Part shown: one piece after another, positions 2,781 through 60,879 of the stretch
Layout of the letters: every line of letters begins with the position of its first letter
How positions within the stretch are numbered: the stretch's first letter is position 1
Assembly: GCA_017458335.1 (NCBI GenBank)
Contig: JAFTFT010000041.1
Location: 1-64,000, forward strand
Source of the DNA: Oscillospiraceae bacterium
Lineage (GTDB): Bacteria > Bacillota > Clostridia > Oscillospirales > Oscillospiraceae
DNA length: 64,000 nt
Direction of reading: 5' to 3'
Translations under genes and position numbers: made by a program
Notes under the pieces: model-generated
Database searches by the model: none
What the model was told of the DNA's origin: nothing
The model's input: only the letters and a program-made list of their open reading frames with translations

Positions 2781-2824
2781 AATCCGCCTCGCAGAGCGCA
2801 CGACCTGACCACCGGGAAGGCTGC

Positions 2825-2865
2825 CACCGCCGGGCCTGTGGCCCGGTGGTGAGTAAGTGCGCCCT
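2825..2865 (+). other. Putative MOB_Q-type oriT (hairpin plus nic core)
   Basis: A strong hairpin at 2825-2851 (CCGGGCC, loop TGT, GGCCCGG, extended by further pairs) is followed after two bases by TAAGTGCGCCCT at 2854-2865. RSF1010/pSC101-type origins of transfer have this architecture: an inverted repeat followed by an (A)A(G/A)TGCGCCCT nic core. The relaxase encoded next door belongs to the family that uses such sites. The expected nick is near the end of the CGCCCT run. Confidence 0.7.
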
Positions 2866-2917
2866 TCGGGATAAAAGAAAGCGGAGCGCCCCGGTCTCCC
2901 GGAACGCCCCACTCCCG

Positions 2918-3115
2918 TTAAGATAAATGTTCGCGTAAAACATCTTCGAGCTCTGTCAGATCCATCCCATTCACAGCGGGAAAGACCTTTTCCAAAACCG
3001 CACCCTCCTGGATCAGCCGCCGCGTCCGGGCCTTTCGTTCCTTTACCCGGTCTCTGGCCTGGGCTTCCTCCAGTCGGTGCTTTGCTTGGATCAGTTTCTT
3101 TTCGTCTTCTGTCAT
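2918..3115 (-). CDS. DUF3847-like small mobilization-associated protein
   Basis: This 65-residue protein has a strong GGAGGG ribosome binding site. The first 40 residues are Lys/Arg/Glu-rich and likely coiled coil, and the C-terminal part (LEKVFPAVNGMDLTELED) is conserved in small proteins found beside MobA/MobL relaxases in clostridial elements. I assign it to the DUF3847 type by resemblance. It lies on the far side of oriT from the relaxase, so a relaxosome accessory role is plausible but unproven. Confidence 0.6.
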   Translation of the reverse strand: MTEDEKKLIQAKHRLEEAQARDRVKERKARTRRLIQEGAVLEKVFPAVNGMDLTELEDVLREHLS

Positions 3116-3145
3116 AATTACCCTCCTTGGTAGCAGAAATGATTA

Positions 3146-3204
3146 GCGCAGATACCATTTTCCCGTGGCTTGGTATCAAGCGCCGTGATAATTGGTATCT
3201 GCGC
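3146..3204. repeat. 12-bp inverted repeat pair
   Basis: GCGCAGATACCA at 3146-3157 pairs perfectly with TGGTATCTGCGC at 3193-3204, with a 35-base loop containing a further TGGTATC. It lies upstream of the DUF3847-like gene and is part of a cluster of TGGTATC heptamers. Confidence 0.6.
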
Positions 3205-3283
3205 AACTTATGTTTGGTTTTTGGCATCAAAAATGGCCGGGAGTGATACTACTGTGGTATCATTCCCGGCCGGGTGTGGTATC
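3151..3283. repeat. Cluster of TGGTATC heptamers
   Basis: Four TGGTATC copies (3171, 3193, 3255, 3277) and one inverted GATACCA copy (3151) fall within 133 bases. Their density between two element genes suggests binding sites for an element protein such as a partition or relaxosome factor. Two copies are built into hairpin arms, so part of the repetition may come from secondary structure. Confidence 0.5.
3235..3271 (-). terminator. Rho-independent terminator after the nucleotidyltransferase gene
   Basis: A 15-bp stem (GGCCGGGA..., one G-T pair) with a seven-base loop lies 20 bases past the stop of the gene ending at 3291. On the minus strand it is followed by ATTTTTG. Confidence 0.7.
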
Positions 3284-3290
3284 CGTTGTC

Positions 3291-4091
3291 TTATCTTTCG
3301 CGACCATCTCGCTTTTGGGCCTTTGGCTGATCCGTCTCCGCTTTCTTCTCCCGGAGCTTTGCAAGGATAGAGGCTCGGTCTGTTTTCTTCTGCAGGTTTC
3401 CGGCGATCTCGTTTACGTTTTTCCCTGTTACGACATTGGGATAATTCTGCTCAAACTGAACCAACAGCGCACCAACCTCTTTTTCGCCGCTTACCGTCTG
3501 CTCATAAAGCTCTTCAAAGCGCCCGTCCTCCATGACGTTTTCTATAAACGCCTGTGAGGTTTCTGGAAGCGATTCCCAGCCTCCGTAAAGATCAGCTACT
3601 GCCTTGTGGATCTGATCCATCGAGATTGGCGTCCCGCGCTTCTCATGCTCTGCGAGGACTCCCAGAATGTCTGACAGATCGCTCTTGTACTGTCGCCCGG
3701 AACGAAGCTTCATAGCGATCAGGTATTCCGCAGCCACCGTGCGGATGGTCACGATATTGGCATAGGTCTTGTAATACACGGAAAACTGAGATAGCTTCAC
3801 CGAATAGGAATCGGTGTTCGTAAAGTCCGCATTCAGCCAGCCATTCGGGAGCCCGTACCGATCACCAACATGATTGATGGCCTCCTTCATGGCGGACGCC
3901 GCCTGAATCAGCGCATCGATATCCGTGGTCATATTCCGAAAGCCGTAGTTGATGAGAACAGAAGCTCCGCCGATCAGAACAAGTTCGGCAGGCATCTTTT
4001 TTCCTGCCTGCTTCCGGTATTCCTTGGCGACCTCTTTCAGGTAGAGATCGATGTTTTCCTTCGTAAACTCAAACTGTTTTTCAGATGACAT
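3291..4091 (-). CDS. AbiEii/DUF6036-like nucleotidyltransferase, probable toxin
   Basis: This 266-residue protein has the minimal nucleotidyltransferase signature: GGASVLINYGF at about residues 40-50, followed by TTDIDAL with the paired acidic residues that bind metal. This pattern is shared by AbiEii-type toxins and DUF6036 proteins. The C-terminus is charged and probably unstructured. Its start overlaps the upstream XRE gene by 11 bases, so the two are translationally coupled. Coupling with an HTH gene under a palindrome-controlled promoter gives the layout of an autoregulated toxin-antitoxin or abortive-infection pair. The toxic activity is inferred; the family can also include housekeeping nucleotidyltransferases. 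Confidence 0.7.
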   Translation of the reverse strand: MSSEKQFEFTKENIDLYLKEVAKEYRKQAGKKMPAELVLIGGASVLINYGFRNMTTDIDALIQAASAMKEAINHVGDRYGLPNGWLNADFTNTDSYSVKLSQFSVYYKTYANIVTIRTVAAEYLIAMKLRSGRQYKSDLSDILGVLAEHEKRGTPISMDQIHKAVADLYGGWESLPETSQAFIENVMEDGRFEELYEQTVSGEKEVGALLVQFEQNYPNVVTGKNVNEIAGNLQKKTDRASILAKLREKKAETDQPKAQKRDGRER

Positions 4092-4650
4092 TTCTTACCT
4101 CGTTTTCAATAATATTGAACCGTTTGAATTCAGGAATCGCTGTCATAGCAGCCTTTTGCAGAACGGCCTTGTCTTTGGATGCCGCCGATACCGCCCGGAG
4201 GCCAGCCGGATACACCGGCTTTTCCAGCTTGCACCGGCGAAGATCATCATACTCGTCACAGAGGGGGATGTCGTTCTCTCGACTGATATAATCCAGCATG
4301 GCAAGCAGATACAGACTCTCGGGATACCATTTCCGATCATAATAGGTTCGGATCTCTTGGCTTTCCAGCGTTTCCGCAATAAAGTCGATGTCGCCCAATT
4401 CCTTGACCCGATGGCAGATTGTGCTCTTGAAGTTTTCAAAGCTGCTGCGCTTCAAGAAACAGGGGGCGAGAAGCTCCTCCATTGTAATATCCAGAGCATG
4501 GGCGATTCGATAGATCGTCTCAGCACTGCATTTTTCCAACTGTGCCTTGCCATTGCAGATATCATTCACCGTAGCATAGGGGACTTCGCTCGTCTTCGCA
4601 AGCCGGTAAATGCTCATGCTCTTCAGCTTCAAAGCATCCTGTATCGTCAT
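4081..4650 (-). CDS. XRE-family HTH protein, probable antitoxin/autorepressor
   Basis: This 189-residue protein has an N-terminal XRE helix-turn-helix (residues about 8-62: MSIYRLAKTSEVPYATVNDICNG region). A C-terminal domain of about 120 residues has no family I can name. It is the first gene of a two-gene operon with the nucleotidyltransferase. A palindrome inside its promoter spacer suggests that it represses its own transcription. The canonical AbiEi antitoxin is a winged-helix protein, so this pair would be a variant with an XRE-type partner. Confidence 0.75.
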   Translation of the reverse strand: MTIQDALKLKSMSIYRLAKTSEVPYATVNDICNGKAQLEKCSAETIYRIAHALDITMEELLAPCFLKRSSFENFKSTICHRVKELGDIDFIAETLESQEIRTYYDRKWYPESLYLLAMLDYISRENDIPLCDEYDDLRRCKLEKPVYPAGLRAVSAASKDKAVLQKAAMTAIPEFKRFNIIENEVRNVI

Positions 4651-4673
4651 CGTCTATCACCTGCCTCTACCAT

Positions 4674-4704
4674 ACATTATAACGGTCAACCGTTATAATG
4701 TCAA
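4674..4704 (-). promoter_or_regulatory. Consensus promoter with embedded palindromic operator
   Basis: On the minus strand TTGACA (4699-4704) and TATAAT (4676-4681) are separated by exactly 17 bases, a perfect sigma-A promoter. A palindrome with 13-base arms (ACATTATAACGGT and complement, centre CA) covers 4674-4701, so it spans the spacer and both hexamer edges. A repressor bound here would exclude RNA polymerase. Confidence 0.85.
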
Positions 4705-4729
4705 CAGCGATTCCAGAATCATTTTCCCC

Positions 4730-5092
4730 TTATAAACTGTTGATGAAATCCATCGCTGTATCCAGATCATCCTCAACCGCCGTGTTGTCCTGTGCCGGGA
4801 CTGGTGCTGCTTGCAGCAAGGCGGCGAGACCGGTCAAGGGATTGGCCTGCACGGCCTGCTGCACCGTTTCCAACAAGCGCTGAAGGAAGGCGTCTTCCTT
4901 CTCCCGCGTTTCCAGATAGGGATCATCGGCCAGCAGCTTTTCCCGGTCGAAATATCCGTTCACGGCAGCAATAATGGCGTCGCTATAGGAGCGATATTTG
5001 GACTTGTCCCGGTTTTTGAGGTAAGCCCATGCCTTGCGCCCCTCCGGCTTCGTAAGATTGATCCGGAGCGTGGTCGTAAAGAGCTTGCTCAT
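4730..5092 (-). CDS. ParR-like ribbon-helix-helix protein
   Basis: This 120-residue protein has an N-terminal segment (TLRINLTKPEGRKAWAYL, then SYSDAIIAAVNGYF) that resembles the ribbon-helix-helix centromere-binding domain of plasmid ParR proteins. The C-terminal half is acidic. No actin-like parM precedes it. Instead the start codon sits inside the end of a truncated transposase reading frame, so upstream partition genes have apparently been lost. A weak AGG lies four bases before the ATG. A mobilization accessory role similar to MobC is the main alternative. Confidence 0.55.
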   Translation of the reverse strand: MSKLFTTTLRINLTKPEGRKAWAYLKNRDKSKYRSYSDAIIAAVNGYFDREKLLADDPYLETREKEDAFLQRLLETVQQAVQANPLTGLAALLQAAPVPAQDNTAVEDDLDTAMDFINSL

Positions 5093-5402
5093 ATCCTGCC
5101 TGCTGAAGCCGATCCAGAATGACGGATGAATTCTTAATTCCTTGTTTTAGCAGACTGTCGATCAGACCTGTATAACCGCTAAGCTTTGTGACTTTATGCT
5201 TACTGCCTTTCGTCTTCCTGGGAAGATCTTGGAAACCATTTCGCTTTAATCTCCGAAGCTTTCCCCGTGAAACACCGGTTCGTCGCTCTAGCTCTGCCAG
5301 ATTAACATGTTCCAGAGAGAAAGAATCTCCCTGTTCTACTTTCATTTCCTCAATGGCTTGTGCTATACTGTTTGCAAAGCCATTACTCATTAACTCTTTC
5401 AT
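5093..5402 (-). pseudogene. Truncated transposase N-terminal fragment
   Basis: From an ATG at 5402 with AAAGGAG five bases upstream, the frame encodes about 100 residues with an HTH segment (LAELERRTGVSRGKLRRL) and a conserved GYTGLIDSLLKQGIKNSSVI stretch. This resembles the N-terminus of IS21-like transposases. Homology ends abruptly at the residues AGYE, where the ParR-like gene begins in another frame. The open frame continues to 4983 only as an out-of-frame readthrough of ParR sequence. The DDE catalytic domain is absent, so the fragment cannot encode a working transposase. Confidence 0.7.
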
Positions 5403-5487
5403 TGTACTCCTTTCCACTGGGTTGTTGGCACTTTCCAGTTTACAGGATTTGAAAGAGCTTCGGTAGTGGCTTTTTCTTTTCCGACTA
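5403..5487. other. Short gap between transposase and tnpV remnants
   Basis: These 85 bases separate the transposase fragment from the end of the tnpV remnant. I see no gene or clear repeat in them; they probably include the upstream end of the truncated insertion element. Confidence 0.4.
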
Positions 5488-5785
5488 TTATTGGTCGTTA
5501 TCTCCCGACATTCTGTGGCTCGTTACGCCCGACCCGAACACCTGAGCTGCCATCTGCTCAACCAGCCTTTCCAGCATGCTTGTTGCTCTTTCATTAGCGT
5601 CAGCCAGATGCCTGTAAAGTGTTCCGTTCAGGATGAGCCGCTCATACAGCCCCGGGTGTTCTACCTACCTCCAGGTATTTCATGTGCATTCTGCCCCATT
5701 TTCCAATAGGACGCTGCTCTTTATCGCCGATTACCAAATCAGGGTACAACATGCCATCATTACCAAGGGTGTAGGTGCCGCCAAA
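5488..5785 (-). pseudogene. tnpV: tnpV remnant, main part, frameshifted
   Basis: Read on the minus strand from the IS junction at 5785, the frame gives FGGTYTLGNDGMLYPDL and GKWGRMHMKYLE, the start of TnpV proteins of Tn4451-type clostridial elements. After KYLE an extra GTAGGTAG-like stretch shifts the frame, and the protein resumes as PGLYERLILNGTLYRHLADAN with the stop at 5488. The end (GVTSHRMSGDNDQ) also departs from the family. The first ten codons lie beyond the IS21 insertion at 8566-8595. Two independent lesions make this a pseudogene. Confidence 0.75.
5780..5785. repeat. Target-site duplication, left copy
   Basis: GCCAAA directly abuts the TGAATATTCCG tip of the IS21-family element, and the same six bases follow the other tip at 8566-8571. 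Confidence 0.85.
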
Positions 5786-5825
5786 TGAATATTCCGTTTT
5801 TTCTGGACACCGAAACCGGCAAAGT

Positions 5826-5883
5826 TGAACACTTTCTCCGGCCGAAATGAACATCTTCACCGCTTAAACTGAACACTTTCTCC
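5826..5883. repeat. IS21 subterminal repeats, left end
   Basis: Two copies of TGAACACTTTCTCC (5826-5839 and 5870-5883) lie just inside this end. The inverse copy at 8511-8524, with a degenerate one at 8489-8502, lies at the other end. These are the multiple transposase-binding repeats expected of IS21-family ends. Confidence 0.75.
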
Positions 5884-6124
5884 GTGTGCATTGCACATTG
5901 ACAATTGAACACACGAACTGGTATCATGATCTTGCTTTTCCTTGCACTGGAGGATAGGGCAACGGTGGGGACCGACCCGAGCGCCAATGCAGGGTTTACA
6001 AAGGAGAGTGATGCCTGGGAGTGTCACTCTTTTTTATTATGCTCATGAGAAACACCACTCTCCTTGGAAAACTTAAAGCGTAAAACCCCGGGTCTGGGCA
6101 GAGCCCAGTGAGCCGCAGGCTCCT

Positions 6125-6868
6125 TTACTGAATGGTGCTCTTGCGCTTACGCATGGAATCATCGCCCTCAATGATGATCTTGTGTGAATCATGAGCAAAG
6201 CGGTCACAGATTGCATCCGCAGTAAGCTTGTTTGGCACCTGCTCCATCCAACCTGGGACATCAAACTGAGAGCAGAGAATGGTAGAGCCTTTGTGGTAGC
6301 GCGCATCTGCAATTTCAAGAACATCTCGGGATTCCATCTCGGATAGCGGATAGCGCATCCATTCATCAATAATCAGGAGAGCCGGCTTCTTGTACTATTG
6401 CATTGCCTTTGGAAAGGTATTTCCAGCTCTTGCAATCTGCAAGTCCGTGAGAAGATCTTGGAGCCTTACATATTTGACCTTAAAGAAGTTTCTTGCTGCC
6501 GAGATCCCCAGAGCGCAGGCAAGATAAGTCTTTCCACAGCCTGTGGCTCCAAGAAGCAGGATGTTGTGATGCTCCCGAATGTAATTGCAAGTGGAGAGCT
6601 TGGTGATCAGTTCCCGGTCGAGTTTCCGATCCGGGAAATAGTCAATGTTTTCAATACAGGCCCCAGGCTGGTCGAATCCTGCCTTTTTAATCAGATCTTT
6701 CAAGCGGTTGCTCTTTCTGGCTGACCATTCCTGGTCTACAATCAGGCCAAAACGTTCTTCAAAGCTTAAATTCTGGAAAGAAGACTCTTTGAGCTGGTGC
6801 TGAAAAGCTTCCGCCATCATACTGAGCTTCATTTCACGAAGCTTTGTCACAGTAGTCGTGTTCAACAT
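6125..6868 (-). pseudogene. istB: istB transposition helper ATPase with in-frame amber codon
   Basis: IstB is the AAA+ ATPase that selects targets and activates the IstA transposase. The frame starts at an ATG at 6868 overlapping the istA stop (TGATG). It encodes Walker A GATGCGKTY and runs 157 codons to a TAG at 6395-6397. The same frame continues directly with YKKPALLIIDEW (Walker B) and IstB residues to a stop at 6125, giving a normal length of about 247 codons. The stop is at a glutamine-rich spot, so a CAG-to-TAG change is the simplest origin. Without readthrough the product loses Walker B and should be inactive. Confidence 0.85.
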
Positions 6869-10596: not shown

Positions 10597-11343
10597 TCAG
10601 AGCACCTTGGAAAGGAAGTCCTTGAGGCGCGGATTGTTCGGGTGGTCGAACAGCTCGTTCGGCTCGTTCTCCTCCAGGATCTGGCCGCCGTCCATGAAGA
10701 TCACGCGGCTCGCGACCTCACGGGCAAAGCCCATCTCGTGGGTGACGACGACCATCGTCATGCCGTTTCTGGCAAGATCCCGCATCAGGTCCAGCACTTC
10801 GTTGACCATCTCCGGGTCCAGGGCCGAGGTCGGTTCGTCGAAGAGCATGACCTCCGGCTCCATGGCCAGGGCGCGGACAATGGCGATGCGCTGCTTCTGG
10901 CCGCCGGAGAGCATGTTGGGATATTCGTTGGCCTTATCCGCCAGGCCGATGCGATCAAGAAGCTCCTTCCCCTTCGCCTGGGCTTCCGCCTTTGTTTTCA
11001 GCTTCAGGTGGACCGGAGCCAGCGTGATGTTCTGCATCACCGTCTTGTGCGGGAAGAGATTGAAGTGCTGAAACACCATGCCCATCTTCCGCCGGTGGAG
11101 ATTCAGGTCCACGCTCTTGTCCGCCAGGTCCACCCCGTCGAAGTAGATGTGTCCCGAGGTCGGCGTCTCCAGCATGTTCAGGCAGCGCAGCAGCGTGCTC
11201 TTTCCGGAACCGGAGGCGCCGATGATGGCGACAACCTCACCCTGGTGGATGGTCAGGTTGCAGCCGTTGAGCGCCTTGACCTTGCCGTTGTTGTACTCTT
11301 TTTTCACGTCCACGACGCGGATGAGCTCATTGCTTGTCGCCAC
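10597..11343 (-). CDS. Polar amino acid ABC transporter ATPase
   Basis: This 248-residue ATPase of the GlnQ/HisP type energises import. It has Walker [10 protein letters not shown] (about residue 42), a Q-loop in FQHFNLFPH, signature LSGGQKQR (about 145) and Walker [14 protein letters not shown] (about 163), followed by the switch histidine in VVTHEMGF. Start is GTG with GGAGGATG upstream. It overlaps the permease gene by 17 bases. It is close in sequence to the second ATPase at 16811-17572, so the two operons are probably paralogous. Confidence 0.95.
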
Positions 11344-12061
11344 GGCGCATCCTCCTTTCGATTGCCTCGATGGCCTTGGAGGCCGGATAGTTGATGCAGA
11401 AGTAGATCAGCGCCGCCACCGTATACGGCGCAAGCGTGATATACGTCGCTCCCGCGACGGTCTTCGCGGCGAACATCAGTTCCGCCATGCCCAGCGTTGA
11501 GCAGATCGACGACTCCTTCACCATGGTGACGATTTCATTGGCCAGGGCCGGCAGGACGTTCTTGATCGCCTGCGGCAGGACGACCAGCTGCATGGAAGCC
11601 CAGGAAGAAAGCCCCAGCGAGCGGGCAGCCTCGGTCTGGCCGATATCCACCGCGAGGATGCCGCCGCGGAAGATTTCCGCCACGTAGGCGGAAGAGTTCA
11701 GCGCCAGCGCCACAACGCCGGGAATAAAGCGGCTCATCGGGATGAAGCCAAAGAGCTGCCAGCTGTTCGGGATCCGCACCGCGCCGAACAGGCCGAAATA
11801 GATAATGCTCAGCTGCACCAGCAGCGGCGTCGAGCGAAAGATCGCAATGTACGCGCCGGAGATGCCCTTGACCAGCTTGTTCTTGCTCAGGCGCATGATG
11901 GCCAGAAGCAGGGCCGGAATCACGGCCAGCAGGACGGAACAGACCGCCAGCAGCAGGGTATAGCCCACCGCCTGCAGGATGTACGTTCCGTATTCCCCCA
12001 TGAAGGAGAAATTAAAGAACGACGCCGGCGACAGATTGCCGAAAATACCTTCCCAGTCCAT
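11327..12061 (-). CDS. Polar amino acid ABC transporter permease
   Basis: This 244-residue membrane protein of the HisM/GlnP type has about five transmembrane helices and the EAA loop ([25 protein letters not shown]) at about residues 145-170, which contacts the ATPase. The first helix is near residues 30-50. It is second in the operon, after the binding protein and a long stem-loop. A single permease gene implies a homodimeric pore. Confidence 0.94.
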
Positions 12062-12187: not shown

Positions 12188-13078
12188 TTATTTTGTTTCG
12201 GCTGCTGCCTCTTCGACAGCTTCGGCTTCCTCTTCGCCCATCAGGACGTCGTCAGACTCATAGCCCTCGGGAGCATCCGCGGAGACCTCTTCGATGCCCT
12301 GGATGGCGTCGACCGTCGCCTTGAACTCGTCGATCTTGCCCTCGGCCTTCAGCTGTGCAATGGCCTCATTGATGCCGTCCAGCAGGCCCTTCGGGTCGCC
12401 CTTGGCCACAGCCACCGCGATGCCGTTGGGTTGCGGGAAGACCTTGCTTGCCTCTTCGGCGATGGAAAGCTGGTCATACTGCTTGTCATAGGAGACCGCG
12501 ACGGAGCCGTCGAGAAGGATCGCGTCGATCTTGCCGTTGACAAGTTCATTGACAAGGTCGGTCACCAGCGGGAGAGAAACCACACTGCAGCCGATCAGGT
12601 TCTGCTCGGCCTTTTCAACCTTGGTGGAACCGGTCTGTGCGCCGACGCTCACGCCGTTAAAGTCGGTCGCGGGATCCTGGAACTTGTCCACATCTTCGGT
12701 GCGGACAAGGATGTACTCGGGCAGCTCATCCATATAGCTCTCGGAGAAGTCGGCGGCCTTCAGACGCTTCTCGGTCGGCTCGATATCGGCCAGAACGATG
12801 TCAAAGTCGCCCTTGTTCAGCGCGGTCAGCAGGTAACCGAAGTCCATGTTCTCGATCTGAAGCTCCATGCCGAGATAGTCGGCAATGTACTGCGCGACCA
12901 TGATGTCAATGCCGCCGAAGACCATCTTGCCGTTCTCATCGGGATACATGAACTCAAACGGAGCGTAGTCGGCGCTCGTACCGAAAACGAGGACTTCTTT
13001 CTTTTCAGCAAACGCAGCCGTTGCGGCTACGCTGAAGATCAGAACCAGAATCAAAGCGATCGAAATTATTTTTTTCAT
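12188..13078 (-). CDS. Family 3 amino-acid binding protein, non-lipoprotein
   Basis: This 296-residue extracellular solute-binding protein has a signal peptide (residues 1-24, cleavage after AFA). The family 3 core begins VLVFGTSADYAPFEF and continues through GGIDIMVAQYIADYL, a polar or basic amino-acid binder type. No lipobox cysteine follows the signal peptide, which is unusual in a Gram-positive ABC importer. The last 35 residues are an acidic Glu/Ala-rich tail outside the fold. It is the first gene of the operon, under a consensus promoter with an ARG-box-like operator, so arginine or a related amino acid is a reasonable substrate guess. Confidence 0.92.
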   Translation of the reverse strand: MKKIISIALILVLIFSVAATAAFAEKKEVLVFGTSADYAPFEFMYPDENGKMVFGGIDIMVAQYIADYLGMELQIENMDFGYLLTALNKGDFDIVLADIEPTEKRLKAADFSESYMDELPEYILVRTEDVDKFQDPATDFNGVSVGAQTGSTKVEKAEQNLIGCSVVSLPLVTDLVNELVNGKIDAILLDGSVAVSYDKQYDQLSIAEEASKVFPQPNGIAVAVAKGDPKGLLDGINEAIAQLKAEGKIDEFKATVDAIQGIEEVSADAPEGYESDDVLMGEEEAEAVEEAAAETK

Positions 13079-13117
13079 TTCAGTGGTCCTTTCGCATAAA
13101 TTTATTCGACGCCGGTT

Positions 13118-13146
13118 ATTATAGTGAATATTTATTCAGATGTCAA
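13118..13146 (-). promoter_or_regulatory. Consensus promoter of the first ABC operon
   Basis: TTGACA (13141-13146) and TATAAT (13118-13123) on the minus strand are exactly 17 bases apart. The spacer holds the ARG-box-like palindrome. The binding-protein start lies 40 bases downstream. Confidence 0.9.
13125..13138. promoter_or_regulatory. ARG-box-like operator in the promoter spacer
   Basis: TGAATATTTATTCA is a near-palindrome differing by one base from the core TGAATAATTATTCA of ArgR/AhrC operators. It lies wholly between the -35 and -10 hexamers, where binding would block transcription. Confidence 0.6.
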
Positions 13147-13178
13147 GGGGTTCTGCCTTTTTTCTTTTTTGTTTCTTT

Positions 13179-14540
13179 TCAGTCGGCGGGATACCGGATC
13201 GGCTTGCCCAAACGGCCGTTTACGATTTTCCCGTCCAGAACCGCAGGCTCGCCCGCCAGGAAGACCGCCCTGATTCCCTTCGGGGGCAGCGTCGGTTCGG
13301 CGAAGGTGGCGCAGTCGAGGATCTCCTCCGGGTCAAACAGCACGAGGTCCGCGTCCGCGCCCGGACAAAGGCTTCCCTTCTGCGAAAGCCCCAGACGCAT
13401 GGCCGGAAGGGCCGTGATGCGGAACAGGGCTTCGTTCAGGCTCAGGCCGCTCTCCGGGGCAAGTTTCGCGAGAAAGCGCGGGAAGGCCCCGGCCGCCCGC
13501 GGATGTCCCTTTCCGTCGAAGAGGAAGCAGTCGCTTCCGACGGTGACGTTCGGATGGCGGTACGCGAGGCGGATTTCGTCCTCCCTCATCACATGTCCGA
13601 CCGTCAGATAGTCCGGATGCGCCTTTCTCTCCGCTTCAAAGATCTCTCTGGTACAGCGCTGTCCGCGGTAGCTTCCTTCGCAGAGCTCGATATCCGCGTA
13701 GCTGCAGTGCATCGCCTCCAGGTCGTCATAGGGGGCGCTTCCGATGCGGGTGGAGAAGGCCGCATACGGGTAACAGTCGCAGCAGGCGTCCATCCCCTCG
13801 GCGCGAAAGCGGTCCACCAGGGTCAGCAGCGCTTCCATCTGTCCGTAGGCCGCCATGCTGCCGATGTGAGAGAGCTGCACCGGGACGGAGGCCTCTTTCC
13901 CCGCTTCCAGCACCTCGGCCGCAGCCGCCGGCGCCCCCTCCGCGCAGGCGCGGATGTGGGCGGCGATCAGCTTCCCTCCGGCGCTGCAGCAGCGGGCCGC
14001 GGCCGAAAGCTCTTCCCGGCTCATGCCGGGGATGTATTCCAGACCGAAGGAGACGCCGGCGCAGCCCGCGTCCAGCGCCGCCGTGACCGCATGACCGATG
14101 GCTTCGATCTCCGAGGCGGATGCGGCGCCGTAGCGGTCCGCCTTCGAAAACCTCTCCCGGAACCAGGTATACCCGGCCAGCATCGCGACATTCACGAAGC
14201 AGCCGTCCCGCTCGATCTCATCCAGGAACGCGGTCGGATCGCCGAAGTTGTCGCCGCAGTTTCCGGCGAGGCAGGTGGTCACGCCCATGCGCAGCAGGCA
14301 GGCGAGATTCGCCCTGTCCGGGTCCTTATAGCGCTTCCCGTTCACCAGAGGGTCCTCATGGGCGTGCAGGTCGATGAATCCGGGGCAGACGACGAGGCCG
14401 CCGGCATCCGTCGTGAGATCCGCCGGGGGCGTCTCCGCGGTGAGGCAGAGGACCTTTCCGTCTTCCAGAAGGACATTCAGCCTCGCGTCGATGCGCTGAG
14501 AAGGGTCGATGACCCTTCCGTTTCTGATCAGGTGTTTCAT
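13179..14540 (-). CDS. N-acyl-D-amino-acid deacylase (amidohydrolase family)
   Basis: This 453-residue metal-dependent hydrolase releases D-amino acids from N-acyl derivatives. It has the amidohydrolase entry GFIDLHAHED (about residue 55), the GNCGDN segment, and a late GSDCFLFDGKGHPRAAGAFPRFL-type stretch around residues 345-365 that is diagnostic of the D-aminoacylase group, with the Asp after the metal site. The C-terminal beta-sandwich closes with PGADADLVLFDP. Flanking transporters, alanine racemase and an M20 amidohydrolase suggest scavenging of acylated or D-amino acids. Dipeptidase-like or imidase activity is possible within this fold. Confidence 0.85.
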   Translation of the reverse strand: MKHLIRNGRVIDPSQRIDARLNVLLEDGKVLCLTAETPPADLTTDAGGLVVCPGFIDLHAHEDPLVNGKRYKDPDRANLACLLRMGVTTCLAGNCGDNFGDPTAFLDEIERDGCFVNVAMLAGYTWFRERFSKADRYGAASASEIEAIGHAVTAALDAGCAGVSFGLEYIPGMSREELSAAARCCSAGGKLIAAHIRACAEGAPAAAAEVLEAGKEASVPVQLSHIGSMAAYGQMEALLTLVDRFRAEGMDACCDCYPYAAFSTRIGSAPYDDLEAMHCSYADIELCEGSYRGQRCTREIFEAERKAHPDYLTVGHVMREDEIRLAYRHPNVTVGSDCFLFDGKGHPRAAGAFPRFLAKLAPESGLSLNEALFRITALPAMRLGLSQKGSLCPGADADLVLFDPEEILDCATFAEPTLPPKGIRAVFLAGEPAVLDGKIVNGRLGKPIRYPAD

Positions 14541-14692
14541 ACTGTTCCGCTTCTCCTTCTACCTTCCGCAATGGTTTTGATCATGCTTTCCGGCGCTCTC
14601 CGCCCGCCGTGGCCTGCGGCCGCCTTGCGTCCGGGCCGCTTCCGTGGTATACTTCCCGCAGAATACCCGCGTGAACGAAAGGATCGATGTAC

Positions 14693-15274
14693 ATGAAAAT
14701 CTGTCTGTTCGGTGCCTCTTCCAGCCGGCTGAACCCGGTCTACTTCCGGGAGGCCGAGGCAATGGGCCGCCTGCTCGCCGAAGGCGGTCACAGCGTCGTG
14801 TTCGGCGGCGGAGTCGACGGGCTGATGGGCGCCTGCGCCCGCGGCGCGAAGGCCGCCGGCGGAAAGGTCGTCGGCATCGCGCCGCGGATGTTCAACGAAC
14901 CCGGCATTCTGCTCCCGGAATGCGACGAGCTGATCCTGACAGATACCATGGCCGCCCGGAAAGAAAAAATGTTCGCCGAGAGCGAGGCCTTTCTCGCCCT
15001 GCCCGGGGGCATCGGGACCATGGACGAGTTCTTCGAGGCGATCACGCTGCGGCAGCTGGGCCTGCTCCGGGGGCAGGTCGTTCTGCTGAACACGCTGGAC
15101 TTCTATACGCCGCTTGTCTCTTATCTCGGGCAGATGGCGGAGCAGGGCTTCATGAGCCGGAACTGTCTCGAGCTTGTGCGGCTTTGCAATACGCCGGAGA
15201 GCGCGCTGGAGGCGCTTGAAATCCCGGATGAACTGGATGGGAGCATCCGCCGTCTGGAGGACTATACCCGCTGA
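14693..15274 (+). CDS. LOG family protein (TIGR00730)
   Basis: This 193-residue Rossmann-type protein has the PGGIGTMDEFFE motif (about residues 103-114) that binds nucleoside monophosphate. Family members hydrolyse the N-glycosidic bond of cytokinin riboside or other 5'-monophosphates. In bacteria the physiological role is unclear, with purine monophosphate cleavage most likely. The older annotation lysine decarboxylase is not supported. The start at 14693 is favoured over 14687 because AAAGGA is then nine bases away. It is transcribed against its neighbours and has its own terminator. Confidence 0.9.
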   Translation: MKICLFGASSSRLNPVYFREAEAMGRLLAEGGHSVVFGGGVDGLMGACARGAKAAGGKVVGIAPRMFNEPGILLPECDELILTDTMAARKEKMFAESEAFLALPGGIGTMDEFFEAITLRQLGLLRGQVVLLNTLDFYTPLVSYLGQMAEQGFMSRNCLELVRLCNTPESALEALEIPDELDGSIRRLEDYTR

Positions 15275-53865: not shown

Positions 53866-55287
53866 TTACCCAATCACCCGGATCACATCAAAGGCTTCCC
53901 CGGATTCCAGAACCTCTCTGGCCTGCCCCAGGTTATGGCAGATTACGCACTTCAACTCTCCGACCGTGAAGCGTTCCGGCGCAGCATCTCTCGCCATGGA
54001 CCACGCGGCCTTCTCCAGAAGTCTTCCGAATTTTCCGCCGGGCTGCGGCACGGGAAGCACTTTCAGTTCTGCGGTGCGCTTCGGATTCGGCTCGGAGCCG
54101 GTGCGGATCATGATGCGCGCCAGTTCCCGCGGATTCACCGTGATGTCCACCGGATGGGTCTTCTCGGTCTCGGAGGCATCGTTTCCGACGGGGGTGACGG
54201 CAAAGAGCCTGTCCGCCTGACCGCGCAGGGCAGAGCCGAACTGCGCAACGGCCGAGCCGTAGAACACAAAGCTCTCCTTCCGCTCCGGGAAGTTTTTCTC
54301 CAGGAAGGCCTTCGCCGCAAAGCTGTTGGTGAGGATAACGGGTCTCTGCCCTTCCAGCTTCTCTGCCAGCAGTGCCTCGGCCTCCGCCTCGGCGGCCTTC
54401 TCCGCGCCGGCCGCGTCATAGATCTCATCGGTGCCGATCTTCTTCAGGCTTCCCGCGATCTGCTCCGGCGTCACGCTGCCTGGCTGCAGCTTCAGCACGC
54501 GCTCCAGCTCCGGAATCACATCGGCATCCACCAGGGCGGCGGTTTTCAAGCCGTCCCGGTGCGCATAGTAGACCAGTTCGTCCTTGTGCTCCATGGCATG
54601 GATCGCGCCCGTGGGGCAGACCTCGACGCAGCGGCCGCAGCCGATGCACCCGCTCTCCGCCATGCTCCTGCCGAAGGCCGGCCCGATCAAAAGCTCGCTG
54701 CCACGGCCGGATGCCGCCAGATTGTGTACGGTCTGAACCTTGCCGCACACGTCCACGCAGCGTCTGCATTTGATGCACTTGTTGGGGTTGCGGACGATGA
54801 CGGTGCTGTCGTCCAACGGATATGTGTTGTGCTTCTGAGAAAACGGCAGCACATCCACTTTATACTCGCGTGCCAGGGCCTGAAGCTCGCAGAAGCCGTC
54901 CTTCACGCAGTCGCAGAAGAAGCACATCTCACAGAACTTCGGATCCAGATCGTCACAGCGGGAGCTCCCGATCCGCAGGCAGTGGTGGCAGTCCACCGCG
55001 TGGTTGGAGAGCAGCAGCTCTAGCGTCAGCTTCCTCGAATCACGGACCGCTTCCGTGTCGGTGTGGACGACCATTCCTTCGCGCACCCTGGTTGCGCAGG
55101 CATGCTGGAAGGTTCTCGCCCCTTCAATCTCCACCACGCACATGCGGCAGCTGGCCCTCGGATCCAGTTCCTTCAGGAAGCACAGGGTCGGGATGCGGAT
55201 CCCGTTGGCGCGCGCCGCTTCCAGCACGGTCGTTCCGGCAGGCACAGACAGGGTCTTGCCGTCGATGATGATGTTCACGTCTGCCAT
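53866..55287 (-). CDS. HylA-type hydrogenase-like iron-sulfur subunit without H-cluster ligands
   Basis: This 473-residue electron-transfer subunit begins with a [2Fe-2S] domain (Cys36, Cys47, Cys50, Cys64), then a NuoG-type His-Cys cluster (HHCLRIGSSRCDDLD, CEMCFFCDC) and two [4Fe-4S] motifs (CIKCRRCVDVC, CIGCGRCVEVC, about 172-235). The remaining 230 residues align with the [FeFe]-hydrogenase large domain in order, but each H-cluster motif is altered: TSCCPGW becomes TNSFAAK, the second Cys region is YGSAVAQFGSAL, VMPC is VTPV, and the terminal GGCxxGG is missing. It therefore cannot make hydrogen. The start at 55287 is seven bases from GGAGG. Confidence 0.85.
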   Translation of the reverse strand: MADVNIIIDGKTLSVPAGTTVLEAARANGIRIPTLCFLKELDPRASCRMCVVEIEGARTFQHACATRVREGMVVHTDTEAVRDSRKLTLELLLSNHAVDCHHCLRIGSSRCDDLDPKFCEMCFFCDCVKDGFCELQALAREYKVDVLPFSQKHNTYPLDDSTVIVRNPNKCIKCRRCVDVCGKVQTVHNLAASGRGSELLIGPAFGRSMAESGCIGCGRCVEVCPTGAIHAMEHKDELVYYAHRDGLKTAALVDADVIPELERVLKLQPGSVTPEQIAGSLKKIGTDEIYDAAGAEKAAEAEAEALLAEKLEGQRPVILTNSFAAKAFLEKNFPERKESFVFYGSAVAQFGSALRGQADRLFAVTPVGNDASETEKTHPVDITVNPRELARIMIRTGSEPNPKRTAELKVLPVPQPGGKFGRLLEKAAWSMARDAAPERFTVGELKCVICHNLGQAREVLESGEAFDVIRVIG

Positions 55288-55289
55288 GT

Positions 55290-56522
55290 TCATGCCTCCT
55301 TCCTGATCTTTGCGTCGAAGTCTTCGGGGAACAGCTTCAGCGCGCTTATGAGCGCCGTGGTCGCGCTCTGCCCCAGCGGGCAGAAGCAGTTCTTCTGCAT
55401 GTACCCGGAGAGTTTCCTGATCAGCTCCACATCCTGTCTGCTTCCCTCGCCCGCTGCCAGCTTCTCCAGCAGCTCCTCGACGCGCATGGTGCCCTCCCGG
55501 CAGGGGGTGCACTTGCCGCAGCTTTCATGCCGGAAGAACCTGGCGATCTCCCACAGGATGTCCACCATGTTCCGGCTCTCGTCGATCACATACATGGCCC
55601 CGGAGCCCAGAGCCGCGCCGATGGAGCGGATGGAATCAAAATCGATGGGGGTATCCAGCTGCTCCGGTGTCACGAAGCCGCAGCTTGAGCCGCCGAGCTG
55701 GACGGCCTTCAGCTTCTTTCCTCCGGCCACTCCGCCGCCGAACTGCTCCAGCACCTCGCGCAGCGTCGCGTTCGTCGGCACTTCGACACAGACCTTGTTC
55801 TCCACGTCACCCGAAAGGCACATGAGCTTCGTGCCGGGGAACTTTTCGGCGCCGATGCCGCCGAACCAGTCCGCGCCCTTCCGGACGATCTCGGGGATCA
55901 CGGCGAAGGTCTCCACGTTGTTCACGACCGTGGGCTTCTGGTGCAGTCCCTTCACCGCCATGGAGGGCGGCTTCAGACGCGGCTCGCCGCGCAGGCCTTC
56001 CAGCGAGTTCACGATGGCTGTACCTTCGCCGCAGACATAGGCGCCCGCACCGGAGACGACCCTGATCTTCGTCCCGCCGCAGAAGCCCTTCTCTTCCGCC
56101 TGCTTCACCGCCTTGCGCAGCAGTTTAATGGACTTTTCATACTCGCCGCGGACATAGATGAAGCATTCTTTTGCGCCGACGGCATAGGCGCCGATCAGCA
56201 GTCCCTCGATCACGGTATGGGGGTCACCCTCCATGATGACGCGGTCCTTGTAGGTTCCCGGCTCGCCCTCGTCGGCGTTGCAGACCAGGTATTTGGTCTT
56301 CTCTTTGCTCGCGAAAGCGCTGCTCCACTTTTTTCCGGTGGAGAAGGCCGCACCGCCGCGCCCGCGGAGCCGGCTGGTCTCTTCGATGGTCTGGATGAGT
56401 TCTCCCTGGTCCATGGTCCGGGCCTTTTCCAGCGCCTCATAGCCGCCGGCGGCGATATACTCCTCGATGGAATCGGGCTTGATCCGGCCCACATTCCGCA
56501 GGGCAATCCGTACTTCTTCCAT
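55290..56522 (-). CDS. NuoF/HylB-type NADH-binding flavoprotein subunit
   Basis: This 410-residue subunit oxidises or reduces NAD(H) with FMN and passes electrons to Fe-S clusters. The FMN/NAD site shows LRGRGGAAFSTGKKW (about 53-67) and ADEGEPGTYKDR (about 85). The [4Fe-4S] motif SCGKCTPCREG is at about 335, with the fourth cysteine in NCFCPLGQ. It lacks both the N-terminal thioredoxin-like extension and the C-terminal ferredoxin domain of longer HydB/HndC proteins, so it is complex I NuoF-like in length. ATG at 56522 overlaps the upstream stop (TGATG). Confidence 0.92.
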   Translation of the reverse strand: MEEVRIALRNVGRIKPDSIEEYIAAGGYEALEKARTMDQGELIQTIEETSRLRGRGGAAFSTGKKWSSAFASKEKTKYLVCNADEGEPGTYKDRVIMEGDPHTVIEGLLIGAYAVGAKECFIYVRGEYEKSIKLLRKAVKQAEEKGFCGGTKIRVVSGAGAYVCGEGTAIVNSLEGLRGEPRLKPPSMAVKGLHQKPTVVNNVETFAVIPEIVRKGADWFGGIGAEKFPGTKLMCLSGDVENKVCVEVPTNATLREVLEQFGGGVAGGKKLKAVQLGGSSCGFVTPEQLDTPIDFDSIRSIGAALGSGAMYVIDESRNMVDILWEIARFFRHESCGKCTPCREGTMRVEELLEKLAAGEGSRQDVELIRKLSGYMQKNCFCPLGQSATTALISALKLFPEDFDAKIRKEA

Positions 56523-56962
56523 CACCGGTCACCTCCCAGCAGTTCCGGAATTCTTGCGGGATTCACATTGGTATAGAGTTTCCCGTTCACAAGCAGATTG
56601 GGCGCCGCCTGGCACTGGCCGAGACATTCCACCCAGTCCAGGCCGTATTCCTCATTGCTTTCGCCCATCTTCAGGCCGATGGCGGATTCCAGCGAGGCAA
56701 TCAGCGCGGCGTTGTCTCCGCTGTGGCAGGCCGTGCCGCGGCAGACGCGGATCTCCTTCTTCGCCGGCGCGCTGAAGCGCAGCATGGAATAGAAGCTTGC
56801 CGTGTCATAGAGCTCCGCCGCGCTCTTTCCCTCATGCTCGGCCAGAGCGTTCAGAGCTTCCTCGGTCACATAGCCGTCCCGTTTCTGAAGAGCCAGCAGC
56901 GCATCCAGCAGGCCGCCCTCCTGAAGGGCTTTTTTGATTACTGTCTGATAAGAGCTTGCCAT
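56522..56962 (-). CDS. NuoE/HylC-type [2Fe-2S] subunit
   Basis: This 146-residue thioredoxin-fold ferredoxin subunit has four cluster cysteines: CRGTACHSGD (about 79-88) and ECLGQCQAAPN (about 117-127). It partners the NuoF-like subunit. It begins one base after the molybdoenzyme stop, behind GGAGGTG, and overlaps the next gene, so all four genes form one operon. Confidence 0.93.
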   Translation of the reverse strand: MASSYQTVIKKALQEGGLLDALLALQKRDGYVTEEALNALAEHEGKSAAELYDTASFYSMLRFSAPAKKEIRVCRGTACHSGDNAALIASLESAIGLKMGESNEEYGLDWVECLGQCQAAPNLLVNGKLYTNVNPARIPELLGGDR

Positions 56963-56963
56963 C

Positions 56964-59270
56964 TCACACCTCCTGTACCTTCTCGACCCGGCAGGGGGTA
57001 TACCGCCAGTGGGAATTACCGGTCATCTCGTCAATATCGGTGTTATCGGTCAGATAGTTGGCGTGCATGCCGCGTATTTCTCCCTGATAGTGCAGACCGA
57101 AGTAGTGCGGCATCAGGCAGTAGCCGGGTGATGCACGCCAAGTGATTTCTGCCGGGATCTCAACGGAGCCGCGGTTGGTCGAAAGGCGCAACTTTTCTCC
57201 GTCGGCAATACCCATCTCTGCCGCATCCACAGGGTTAATCCAGAGCGTATACAGATTGCGGTAACGGCTTGTCGCCGGATTTCGCATTGCGTTGTTTACG
57301 CCGCCCTCGTCACGCCTGCCGGAAGATAGGATCATGTTGTTTCCGTCCTTGAGCATCAGCGCCTCCCGCTCCCGCTCCGGAGTAATATACGCATAGAGGT
57401 AGTCTTCGATCTCCTTGCACCAGAGATGCATTTTCCCGTCCTTGTGCGTGATATGCTTTTCCATCATATGTTCCGTATCCGCCATACCGATCACTGCGCC
57501 CTCCGGATGGTGATCAACCAGATCAAAGGCCGCATCCAGCACACACCAGTCTTTGAAGACCGGGAGCCTGGATAGCACAGGATGCAGACCGGTATCCGCC
57601 TGGACAGTCGGAATCGCGCTTTTGAAGACAGGACTGGTCAGCAGAACCGCCCAGTTCATTGCCCGGCCGGAGGATCTCATGGCTTTTCCAAGGGTAAGTG
57701 CGATGATCGTTGCAGCCTGATCAAAGTACTTCATGCCGCCTTTTCCGATCCACATAACGACTTTCATAAAGTACTTGATGCGGTCCCCCGTGCGTACAGC
57801 CTCCTCTGCCGCGTCGTACAGGCTTTTGGGAAGCTCCGGCAGGTACCCCATGGCCTGCGTCAGTTCCGCAAAAATCATGGAATCTTCCTTCGCCTCACCG
57901 AAAGGCTCGAGAATGCGCTTGCGGCTGCCGAAAACCACCTCCGGATAGTTCAGCGTGAACATATCAAAGTCACCGTCGGCCTCATAGGCGCTCATACTGG
58001 GAAGCACATAATCTGCCAGCATGGTCGTCTCCGTCTCCACACAGTCGATGGCAACGAAAAGCTCCAGCTTTTTGAGAGCTTCCTCTATACGCTGTGAATC
58101 GGGATAGCTACGGGCAGGATTCGTCAGCACACTGAAAGCCAGCCGAATGCGGTCCTCGTTGTCTCCCAGCACTTCATCCGGAAAAACTCCTTCCGGGAAA
58201 ATCCCAAGAACCGGGAAGCGGTTCGTGACCGGCGTGCGCCAGACCTTTGGATCATTCTCATCCGTACTGTCCAGATACAGCACACGCTCGGGCATTACGC
58301 TGCCGCCCTTCACCAGCGCCATGCCGCAGACAATCGCAAGCAGAATGCAAAGATAGCTGCTTGCGGTGGAGTGCCGTCCGAAGAACAGGCCGAGATCGCG
58401 GTGCATGCCCCACTTTTTGGTGGTGATAATGCGGGCAAACTTCTCCGCCTGCTCCCGGGAGATCTGGCAAACCTCCAGTGCCGCGTCGATGTCAAACCCT
58501 TTAAACCACGGCAGGACAAGGGCCCAGTCTCGGGTGTATTGATTGATATACTCCTGGTTCTGCCAGCCTTTTTCCAGAATGATGGCAATCAGTGCGCGCA
58601 TCAGCAGGGCGTCCGAGCCATTGGCCGGCATGATGTGCAGGTCTGCCATGCGCGCCGTCTCGCTCAGCCGCGGATCGACAACGATGACCATCTTCTCCGG
58701 ATCACGGGAAAAGCTGCGGATCGTCCTCTTTGCGTTCGGCATCTGATGAGAGACATATGCGTTGCTACCCCAATAGACAATGACCTCGTTGTTCTCATCA
58801 TCCGGCTCCAAAAAATGGAACGCATAGCCGAAAATGCGGCCGTGGCTCCACCAGTCGCCCATAAACTCCACGCCGATGGGATTGAAATTATACTGCGTGC
58901 CGATGGCCTTCATCAGCGGCAGTGCGGTAGCGGCCGGCGTTGTAATGGAATAGGTTCCGCCGCCGAGAAAAGCCGCAGAACGCGGACCGTGCTTTTGAAT
59001 AATGGCGTTGGCGCGTTCGGCAATCTCCCGGTATGCCTGCTCCCAGGAAATGCGCTCATAGTGGTCGCCCACACGCTTTTTCGGAAAGAGGAGCCGATCC
59101 CGGTTCTCCGTAAAGTATTTCGCCGTTCTGCCCTTGCGGCAGCAGTAGCCGTTTGACCGCGGGCTGGATGGGTCGGGGCGGACATTGATGATCCGATTGT
59201 CCTCGACCTCCATCTCCAGGCCGCAAGTAACGGCGCATAGATTGCACCATGTTTTTTTCCAGACACCCAA
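56964..59270 (-). CDS. Molybdopterin oxidoreductase, catalytic subunit, non-formate type
   Basis: This 768-residue Mo/W-bis-MGD enzyme of the DMSO reductase family has an N-terminal [4Fe-4S] motif Cys9, Cys12, Cys16 and Cys43/44. The metal-ligand region reads DWWSHGRIFG, placing Ser142-His143-Gly144 where formate dehydrogenases have Sec/Cys-His-Gly. Later domains include the cofactor-binding VYWGSNAYVSHQ, the ADYVLPS segment and a C-terminal MopB_CT domain (about 640-750). No twin-arginine signal is present, so it is cytoplasmic, as expected with NuoEF partners. The TTG start follows GAGGAGG. Substrate unknown; serine ligation would suit an oxo-transferase. Confidence 0.85.
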   Translation of the reverse strand: MGVWKKTWCNLCAVTCGLEMEVEDNRIINVRPDPSSPRSNGYCCRKGRTAKYFTENRDRLLFPKKRVGDHYERISWEQAYREIAERANAIIQKHGPRSAAFLGGGTYSITTPAATALPLMKAIGTQYNFNPIGVEFMGDWWSHGRIFGYAFHFLEPDDENNEVIVYWGSNAYVSHQMPNAKRTIRSFSRDPEKMVIVVDPRLSETARMADLHIMPANGSDALLMRALIAIILEKGWQNQEYINQYTRDWALVLPWFKGFDIDAALEVCQISREQAEKFARIITTKKWGMHRDLGLFFGRHSTASSYLCILLAIVCGMALVKGGSVMPERVLYLDSTDENDPKVWRTPVTNRFPVLGIFPEGVFPDEVLGDNEDRIRLAFSVLTNPARSYPDSQRIEEALKKLELFVAIDCVETETTMLADYVLPSMSAYEADGDFDMFTLNYPEVVFGSRKRILEPFGEAKEDSMIFAELTQAMGYLPELPKSLYDAAEEAVRTGDRIKYFMKVVMWIGKGGMKYFDQAATIIALTLGKAMRSSGRAMNWAVLLTSPVFKSAIPTVQADTGLHPVLSRLPVFKDWCVLDAAFDLVDHHPEGAVIGMADTEHMMEKHITHKDGKMHLWCKEIEDYLYAYITPEREREALMLKDGNNMILSSGRRDEGGVNNAMRNPATSRYRNLYTLWINPVDAAEMGIADGEKLRLSTNRGSVEIPAEITWRASPGYCLMPHYFGLHYQGEIRGMHANYLTDNTDIDEMTGNSHWRYTPCRVEKVQEV

Positions 59271-59562: not shown

Positions 59563-60264
59563 TCAGATGATCGCCGTTTCCCCCTCCAAGGGGAGACGCA
59601 TGGTCTCTCTCATACAGGCGGCCGCGGCGGGGGCATTCCGCTCGCTCACATACCGGAAGACCTCTTCGGCGTTCTGAACGACGGCGTCCGTTCCGTTTTT
59701 TTCGATAAACTGCTGATACATGCGCTGCTGCGGCTCCATGGTGCAGTGATACAGCACTGTCAGCAGGAAGTTGTCACTCATCCGGTACATCCGGTAGATA
59801 AACTCCGTAATCCGCACGCAGAACACTTTTCGGTCCTCTTCACGGCGAAGCCGCTCCAGAAGTTCTCCCCATTCTTCCAGGTCCTTCTCTGTCGCCCTCT
59901 GAACTGCCAGCCCTGCCGCCATGGGATCCAGCGCGGCGCGGGTCTCACAGAAGGAGCGCACGTCATGCGCATTGAGCCTTCCCCCGTTGTACTGGAGGAT
60001 GGATGAGAGTACGGCTGGATTCCCACTGGTCCGATAGTCGGTCACATAGACGCCGTGGCGCGGCTTGACCTCTACGAAGCCCTTGTTCGCCAGCTCCGCG
60101 ACCCCCGCGTTCACAATCGTCAGGCTGACACCCATTTTCGTGCAGAGCTCTCTCGACGTGGGCAGGCGGTCGCCCGGTTTCAGTTCCTCCGACAGGATCT
60201 GCCGCTCAATTTCCCGCACAAAGGTCTGCCGGACGGATAAGCTGTTCTTATTGTCTTCGCTCAT
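59563..60264 (-). CDS. GntR/FadR-family transcriptional regulator
   Basis: This 233-residue regulator has an N-terminal winged helix (about 14-75: GDRLPTSRELCTKMGVS, then EVKPRHGVYV) and a C-terminal helical FCD ligand domain (about 100-220). FCD regulators respond to small carboxylic acids or related metabolites, which may be the key to the molybdoenzyme's substrate. It overlaps mogA by four bases (ATGA) and lies directly upstream of the molybdoenzyme operon, so control of that operon is likely. Confidence 0.88.
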   Translation of the reverse strand: MSEDNKNSLSVRQTFVREIERQILSEELKPGDRLPTSRELCTKMGVSLTIVNAGVAELANKGFVEVKPRHGVYVTDYRTSGNPAVLSSILQYNGGRLNAHDVRSFCETRAALDPMAAGLAVQRATEKDLEEWGELLERLRREEDRKVFCVRITEFIYRMYRMSDNFLLTVLYHCTMEPQQRMYQQFIEKNGTDAVVQNAEEVFRYVSERNAPAAAACMRETMRLPLEGETAII

Positions 60265-60794
60265 CGGTCTTCCTTGTGATCATGATGGTGATGATGGTGC
60301 TCGTGGTCATGATCCGTGGAGCCGTCTGCATAGAGCATATCCATCCCGTGGAGAATCGCTTCCAGCACCGCCGCGAGGTTTTCCTTCGCGGCTTTTTCAC
60401 TGCCCGGAAGATTCACGATCAGGGTCTTGCCCCGGATGCCGGCCGCGCTGCGACTCAGGCAGCCGCGCGGGGTGATCTGCAGGCTGGCCCAGCGCATCGC
60501 CTCCGGGATGCCGCGGGTCTCGCGTTCCACCACGGCCAGGGTCGCCTCGGGCGTGATGTCCCGCTGGGAGAATCCGGTCCCGCCCGTCGTCATCACGAGG
60601 CCGATTTTCTTCTCATCCGCGCAGGCGATCAGTTCCGCCTTGATCTGTTCCATCTCGTCCGGAATGATATTGGTATAAACCACGTCAAAGCCCGCGTCCT
60701 CCAGCATTTTGCACACTGCCGGTCCGCTGGTGTCCACCCGTTCGCCGCGGGACCCCTTGTCGCTGATGGTGATGACTGCCGCTGTATATTTCAT
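60261..60794 (-). CDS. MogA/MoaB-type molybdopterin adenylyltransferase with His-rich tail
   Basis: This 177-residue protein activates molybdopterin for metal insertion. It has the MoCF-biosynthesis fold, with SDKGSRGERVDTSGP at the start and TTGGTGFSQRDITPEA (about 72-87) as the nucleotide/pterin site. The C-terminus ends in a run of alternating His and Asp with six consecutive His, absent from ordinary MogA, which suggests a metal store or metal-delivery function. The start at 60794 follows GGGGAGG. It leads the operon with gntR, next to the only molybdoenzyme in the window. Confidence 0.9.
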   Translation of the reverse strand: MKYTAAVITISDKGSRGERVDTSGPAVCKMLEDAGFDVVYTNIIPDEMEQIKAELIACADEKKIGLVMTTGGTGFSQRDITPEATLAVVERETRGIPEAMRWASLQITPRGCLSRSAAGIRGKTLIVNLPGSEKAAKENLAAVLEAILHGMDMLYADGSTDHDHEHHHHHHDHKEDR

Positions 60795-60879
60795 AATTGA
60801 ACCTCCCCGGTTTTGCTTTGGTTTTTGATTGCGCCCAGTATACCGCGAACCAGCGGATTCTTCAAGCGGCATTTCCGGA

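Follow-up and report, generated by a model that had tools for sequence, protein, structure and literature searches.

A four-gene Oscillospiraceae operon for a putative NADH-linked molybdenum or tungsten oxidoreductase with a conserved glutamate at the aligned metal-ligand column

In HylABC-FdhF2, the bifurcating NAD-dependent formate dehydrogenase (FDH) of Clostridium acidurici, a molybdoenzyme is combined with a HydA-like subunit without the L1-L3 H-cluster motifs and with NuoF-like and NuoE-like subunits, according to the accessible part of PMC6085437. Among soluble NAD-dependent FDHs, those of the Rhodobacter/Methylorubrum kind (6tg9, 7vw6) are NADH-linked and non-bifurcating. In the accessible text of PMC6650914, the protein ligand of the metal is the basis for dividing the dimethyl sulfoxide (DMSO) reductase superfamily into types; the ligands listed there and in that of PMC11574389 are Asp, Ser, Cys and Sec, with hydroxide added in PMC11574389, and Glu is not among them. 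By the same sources, Asp is the ligand of the type II enzymes NarG, PcrA and EbdA. The present work concerns an operon at 53866-59270 of a 64,000-nucleotide stretch (the window; positions 1 to 64,000 of contig JAFTFT010000041.1, assembly GCA_017458335.1, Oscillospiraceae bacterium), which encodes a catalytic subunit of the DMSO reductase family (CAT), NuoE-like and NuoF-like subunits and a hydrogenase-like subunit (HYL). Sequence comparison indicates a real, conserved complex, in which the point of interest is a conserved Glu at the column of the metal ligand.

The four genes lie head to tail on the minus strand, with a gap of 1 base between CAT and NuoE, an overlap of 4 bases between NuoE and NuoF, and a gap of 2 bases between NuoF and HYL. 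This layout and the Pfam domains of all four products confirm the original prediction of four coupled genes for these kinds of subunit. The features of the operon are as follows.

56964..59270, minus strand: CAT, catalytic DMSO-reductase-family subunit, 768 amino acids; PF04879, PF00384, PF01568; fold model with a predicted local distance difference test score (pLDDT) of 88.7
59139..59246, minus strand: [4Fe-4S] motif of CAT, Cys9, Cys12, Cys16 and Cys44, with relay Lys46; invariant in alignment A6
58866..58868, minus strand: codon of Glu135 of CAT, placed at the Cys/Sec ligand column of FDHs by profile, hidden Markov model (HMM) and multiple sequence alignments (MSAs)
58845..58847, minus strand: codon of Ser142 of CAT, the ligand proposed earlier, 7 residues past the ligand column by HMM and MSA
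56522..56962, minus strand: NuoE-like [2Fe-2S] subunit, 146 amino acids; PF01257
55290..56525, minus strand: NuoF-like subunit for flavin mononucleotide (FMN) and NADH, 411 amino acids, non-bifurcating residue pattern; PF01512, PF10589
53866..55287, minus strand: HYL, HydA/NuoG-like iron-sulfur subunit, 473 amino acids, without L1-L3 H-cluster motifs; PF13510, PF12838, PF02906

CAT starts with TTG, preceded by AGGAGG; no leader for twin-arginine translocation (Tat) was seen on it, and it is taken as cytoplasmic. Its Fe4S4, molybdopterin and dinucleotide-binding domains are those of the Mo/W-bis-pyranopterin superfamily, and all three, together with the predicted fold, place it among the DMSO reductase (Mo/W-bis-pyranopterin guanine dinucleotide, Mo/W-bisPGD) enzymes. 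Cys12, Cys16, Cys44 and Lys46 are conserved between CAT and 23 FDHs in the MSA. HYL starts with the ATG at 55287; a longer open reading frame from 55512 would overlap NuoF. With moderate confidence, we read the operon as coding for a soluble oxidoreductase that depends on NADH and does not bifurcate electrons. Its core would be a Mo/W-bis-pyranopterin subunit from a separate subfamily; electrons would pass from NADH to CAT, and Glu135 would bind or face the metal.

Relatives of CAT were collected by a named scan with two N-terminal peptide patterns, which divergent members may escape. It gave 24 loci, of which the 22 with a full or near-full CAT were used and the fragments L036 and L037 dropped. 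A sister family (L079-L085), with 37-40% identity to the CAT family, occurs in 7 of 398 genomes of the phylum. In a tree, the family (16 sequences) and the sister (7) each form one group on a joint stem of 2.1 changes per column beside FDH and NapA/Nas; the branches of NarG, TorA, NapA, Nas and DmsA are long and their placement is unsure. CAT appears in these comparisons as a member of a separate clade of Mo/W-bis-pyranopterin enzymes.

Ser142-His143-Gly144 had been set opposite the Sec/Cys-His-Gly of FDHs in the original prediction, with Ser142 as the changed active-site ligand. The letters occur in CAT, but the register is wrong. When a profile of 16 family members was compared with PDB chains, the Cys/Sec of four FDHs fell on Glu135 without gaps and their His on Phe136 (five alignments listed). 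An alignment with FdhF, DMSO/trimethylamine N-oxide (TMAO) reductase and acetylene hydratase had been suggested as a check; the Cys of acetylene hydratase landed on Phe136 in the same comparison. Profile-profile alignment to 23 FDHs again put Cys/Sec on Glu135, both with and without the sister sequences. The family HMM assigned the Cys/Sec of 22 of the 23 FDHs to the Glu135 column, with a posterior symbol of at least 8 in 20 of these, and the HMM of family plus sister likewise assigned 22 of 23. In two larger MSAs, Glu stands in 23/23 and 18/18 family and sister rows, facing Cys/Sec in 23/23 FDH rows and in 16/16 FDH/Nas rows. At the ligand column, CAT has neither the Asp of type II enzymes nor, by the profile methods, the Ser of type III enzymes (DMSO/TMAO reductase).

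Both Glu135 and Ser142 are invariant in the 22 named family loci, a count in which the motif of L022 comes from a broken first CAT copy. Invariance and the single hhalign setting of six in which the TorA Ser fell on Ser142 speak for Ser142 as metal ligand, as in DMSO/TMAO reductase. We nevertheless consider such a role highly improbable: the Ser142 column lies 7 residues after the ligand position in 23/23 FDHs (HMM of family plus sister), Ser142 faced the FDH Cys in 0 of 529 pairwise alignments of family and sister, and the residue is mid-helix in the predicted model. Moreover, all seven sisters keep Glu135 and have Val in place of Ser142. Of the 22 loci, 13 have His and 9 have Cys at position 143; Ser-His-Gly is therefore not the family motif.

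The closest PDB sequences and folds to CAT are those of FDHs, which would suit a divergent FDH. This is judged extremely improbable from the residues at Cys/Sec140, His141 and Arg333 (E. coli FdhF numbering), which we take to be the catalytic positions. In all 23 family and sister rows Cys/Sec is replaced by Glu, the His141 column holds Phe (21) or Leu (2), and the Arg333-Asn336 segment is a gap; the relay Lys is retained in all 23. CAT scores 146.8 bits against the FDH model TIGR01591, whose cut-off is 666.25 (219.3 bits in hmmscan), and its own genome (2.95 Mb assembly, 84% complete) held no match above that cut-off. The earlier view that CAT is probably not an FDH stands, and now as very probable, because these three catalytic residues are replaced or absent, rather than because of Ser142. 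CAT differs from FdhF2 and from the 6tg9/7vw6 enzymes in lacking them. Names such as formate dehydrogenase or bifurcating Hyl should not be given to CAT-type proteins.

An AlphaFold2 model of CAT from a 34-row alignment (the pLDDT 88.7 model listed above) has an FDH/NapA-like fold, with 7vw6 as top structural match and arsenite oxidase among the full-length matches. Glu135 lies in the first turn of helix 132-147. A model from 8 close homologues (pLDDT 44.8) was set aside.

Several results weigh against the placement of Glu135 at the ligand column. The 34-row input of the fold model already carried this register. Three MAFFT modes run on a 14-row set differed, aligning the FdhF Sec with Phe136, Trp141 or Asn128. 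In pairwise alignments, the FDH Cys stood opposite Glu135 in 101 of the 368 pairs with a family member; the others gave a gap (127), a position six residues earlier (81), Trp141 (48) or another position (11). Among the 161 pairs with a sister sequence, 21 met Glu135 and 48 fell at +2. An FDH HMM run on the 23 family and sister sequences gave 8 on Glu135, 2 at +2, 1 deletion and 12 without coverage of the site. Single-sequence hhalign came within one residue of Glu135 for FdhF in 2/6 settings, NapA in 4/6 and a Nas-like protein in 5/6, but in 0/18 with NarG, DmsA and TorA; direct alignment to NarG put its Asp at Trp140. The weaker alignments scatter; the profile alignments and the larger MSAs set the FDH Cys/Sec column at Glu135 and the catalytic-His column at Phe136.

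The same complex might also have no protein ligand to its metal, with Glu135 as a nearby acid/base or substrate-binding residue. Arsenite oxidase, one of the full-length structural matches, is not known to bind its metal through a protein side chain. The superfamily also has members in which hydroxide replaces the side chain (PMC11574389, accessible part). The invariance of Glu at the exact ligand column in two families makes this arrangement unlikely in our view, although it deserves serious weight. If Glu135 does bind or face the metal, it would resemble the Asp of the nitrate/perchlorate reductase group. The likeness to type II enzymes is the carboxylate as proposed ligand; CAT differs in having Glu, not Asp, in a sequence and fold closer to FDH/NapA, and in that no membrane or exported partners were seen.

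NuoE and NuoF are, from their sequences, complex-I-like NADH subunits, which supports the predicted link to NAD(H). Residues that tell bifurcating from non-bifurcating beta subunits are given in PMC7311640 section 17, in its accessible text. All ten aligned family NuoFs agree with the non-bifurcating pattern, with GT[YF]KDR, GGSSCG and a Tyr within the YVCGE/YICGE stretch; five of the 14 NuoEF-bearing loci (L016, L017, L019, L023, L038) were left out of this alignment. A beta subunit of the HylABC kind would be expected to show Ala/Glu with Met around NADH, Phe next to FMN, and GGPSG, where the family has T/K, Tyr and GGSSCG. The genome of the window also encodes another NuoF (L045, an open frame of 634 residues), and this one shows the bifurcating residues GAFMDR, Phe and GGPSGG. 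Nine control FDH loci were judged on two motifs, as the FMN-site pattern matched no NuoF there: a NuoF with DPGA[FY]MDR and GGPSGG occurs at L115, L119 and L120 and one with EPGTFKDR at L113, and five showed no NuoF with these motifs. Near the FMN site, the NuoFs of the gut clade read CGEGTA and those of the Sporomusa and Acetobacterium forms CGEETA; L045 also has CGEG.

HYL is, from its sequence, a HydA-derived iron-sulfur wire that has lost its H-cluster motifs, which are absent from 14/14 members. The strict L1 and L3 patterns missed many of the HydA comparators, with L1 found in 3 of 19 and L2 in 19 of 19, so the absence of L1-L3 rests mainly on L2. HylA likewise has no L1-L3 (PMC6085437, accessible part). 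HYL carries one further feature.

54892..54978, minus strand: Cys-rich insertion in HYL (Cys119, 122, 125, 127), invariant in 14/14 members

The insertion with its four invariant Cys was not seen in 18 of the 19 HydA-like comparators, the nineteenth being unreadable. The insertion distinguishes HYL from HylABC-FdhF2, within a comparison in which C. acidurici HylA itself was not among the sequences. In the 6tg9/7vw6 enzymes the HydA-like wire is not a separate subunit, as it is here. The original prediction had likened the operon to HylABC and suggested ferredoxin as a second partner. A Hyl-type electron-bifurcating complex with ferredoxin and NAD(H) would fit the kinds of subunit, the motif-free HYL and a flavodoxin/ferredoxin-like gene near some CAT genes. 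It is very improbable given a NuoF that is non-bifurcating at three sites and, at 411 residues, has no extra iron-sulfur domain, while bifurcating motifs were detected in three of the nine control loci. The likeness in composition stands; bifurcation is not supported and, in view of the NuoF residues, neither is coupling to ferredoxin in this complex.

Neighbor genes were called by codon-weighted open reading frame calling and tblastn. HYL adjoins CAT in 21 of the 22 loci, and NuoE plus NuoF do so in 14. Six loci have CAT-HYL without NuoEF in the stretch to which the search was confined, which counts against NADH as the donor everywhere; their HYLs are more divergent in five cases (41-45% identity) and 63% identical in one. 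L030 is cut off before any NuoEF, and L015 has neither HYL nor NuoEF. In the sisters, HYL and NuoEF were seen in 0/7 stretches read, two of them short, and MoeA adjoins the gene in 2/7.

In the favored NADH-dependent scheme, electrons would pass from NADH to FMN, through the iron-sulfur centers of NuoF/NuoE to HYL, then to the [4Fe-4S] cluster of CAT and to Mo or W, where a substrate would be reduced. The reductive direction is a guess, and the oxo transfer suggested earlier is a possibility. CAT-HYL would be the core and NuoEF an exchangeable NADH input; at loci without NuoEF another donor, perhaps a flavodoxin/ferredoxin-like protein, would feed HYL. Such a gene lies near CAT in 7/22 loci (L015, L016, L022, L028, L029, L034, L035). 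The arrangement would join a complex-I-like NADH module, present at some loci only, to a different molybdoenzyme core.

It is also possible, and is put forward tentatively, that Glu is the metal ligand in both the NADH-linked family and its partnerless sister, which would then be the first such Mo/W-bisPGD enzymes, and that the NADH-linked family performs a not yet described reduction with NADH in anaerobes of the gut and in acetogens. If true, the conservation of Glu at this column in both families would add a ligand type beside Cys, Sec, Ser and Asp and offer a structure-function test case. No report of a Glu ligand in the superfamily, or of the CAT system, was found in the literature, most subscription papers being out of the search's reach.

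Genes for cofactor synthesis bear on the state of CAT, and two genes upstream of it in the window are of note.

59563..60264: GntR/FCD regulator, upstream of CAT, possibly in the same operon; minus strand; Pfam domains
60261..60872, minus strand: MogA/MoaB-type molybdopterin-binding-domain protein; PF00994

The latter is above the cut-off of TIGR00177 and below that of the MogA model. Together with MoeA or MobA near CAT in 11/22 loci, it argues for a cofactor in CAT. A CAT devoid of Mo/W cofactor, which like NuoG would conduct electrons or be a relic, is very improbable: besides those genes, all three cofactor-related domains are present and the full-length structural matches are cofactor-bearing enzymes.

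Few genomes carry the CAT family. Among 149 relatives there are 9 carriers, all in one genus and the genome of the window among them; in the class, that genome is the one match at 1e-40 among 391; and in the family to which the cultured Sporomusa acidovorans belongs, that species is the one carrier among 12. Most named carriers are metagenome-assembled genomes (MAGs) of Oscillospiraceae, Ruminococcaceae and Clostridia; the others include S. acidovorans and a MAG from groundwater that bears the label Acetobacterium.

No substrate clue from the neighbor genes was consistent across loci. The neighbors include an acyl-CoA ligase in L018, an HgdD-like pair in L029 and, named by eye, genes like short-chain dehydrogenases/reductases in L032 and sister L089. 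Relatives of the GntR/FCD regulator also lie near the CAT genes of L029 and L032. At L018, a helix-turn-helix protein (10734-11672) and MoeA (12910-14823) near the CAT operon both have a PBP_like domain, and perhaps serve molybdate or pterin sensing.

The CAT of L015 (8001-10307) is 88% identical to that of the window, with a flavodoxin/ferredoxin-like gene just upstream and no HYL/NuoEF beside it. Its genome (G072) contains a second CAT copy with all partners (L013/L038, G072:C9). An in-frame TAG interrupts this copy around residue 592, and its NuoF is split over two frames, probably through decay or assembly error; HypA-like and iron-alcohol-dehydrogenase-like genes were seen upstream by eye. 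L022 has two tandem CAT genes, 1624-3915 and 3966-6260, the first with in-frame stops. The genome of the window encodes two PF00384 proteins besides CAT (L046, L047; G000:C35, about 36600-66000). These look exported, with a leader Tat-like by eye, and ModABC-type transport genes, also judged by eye, lie nearby.

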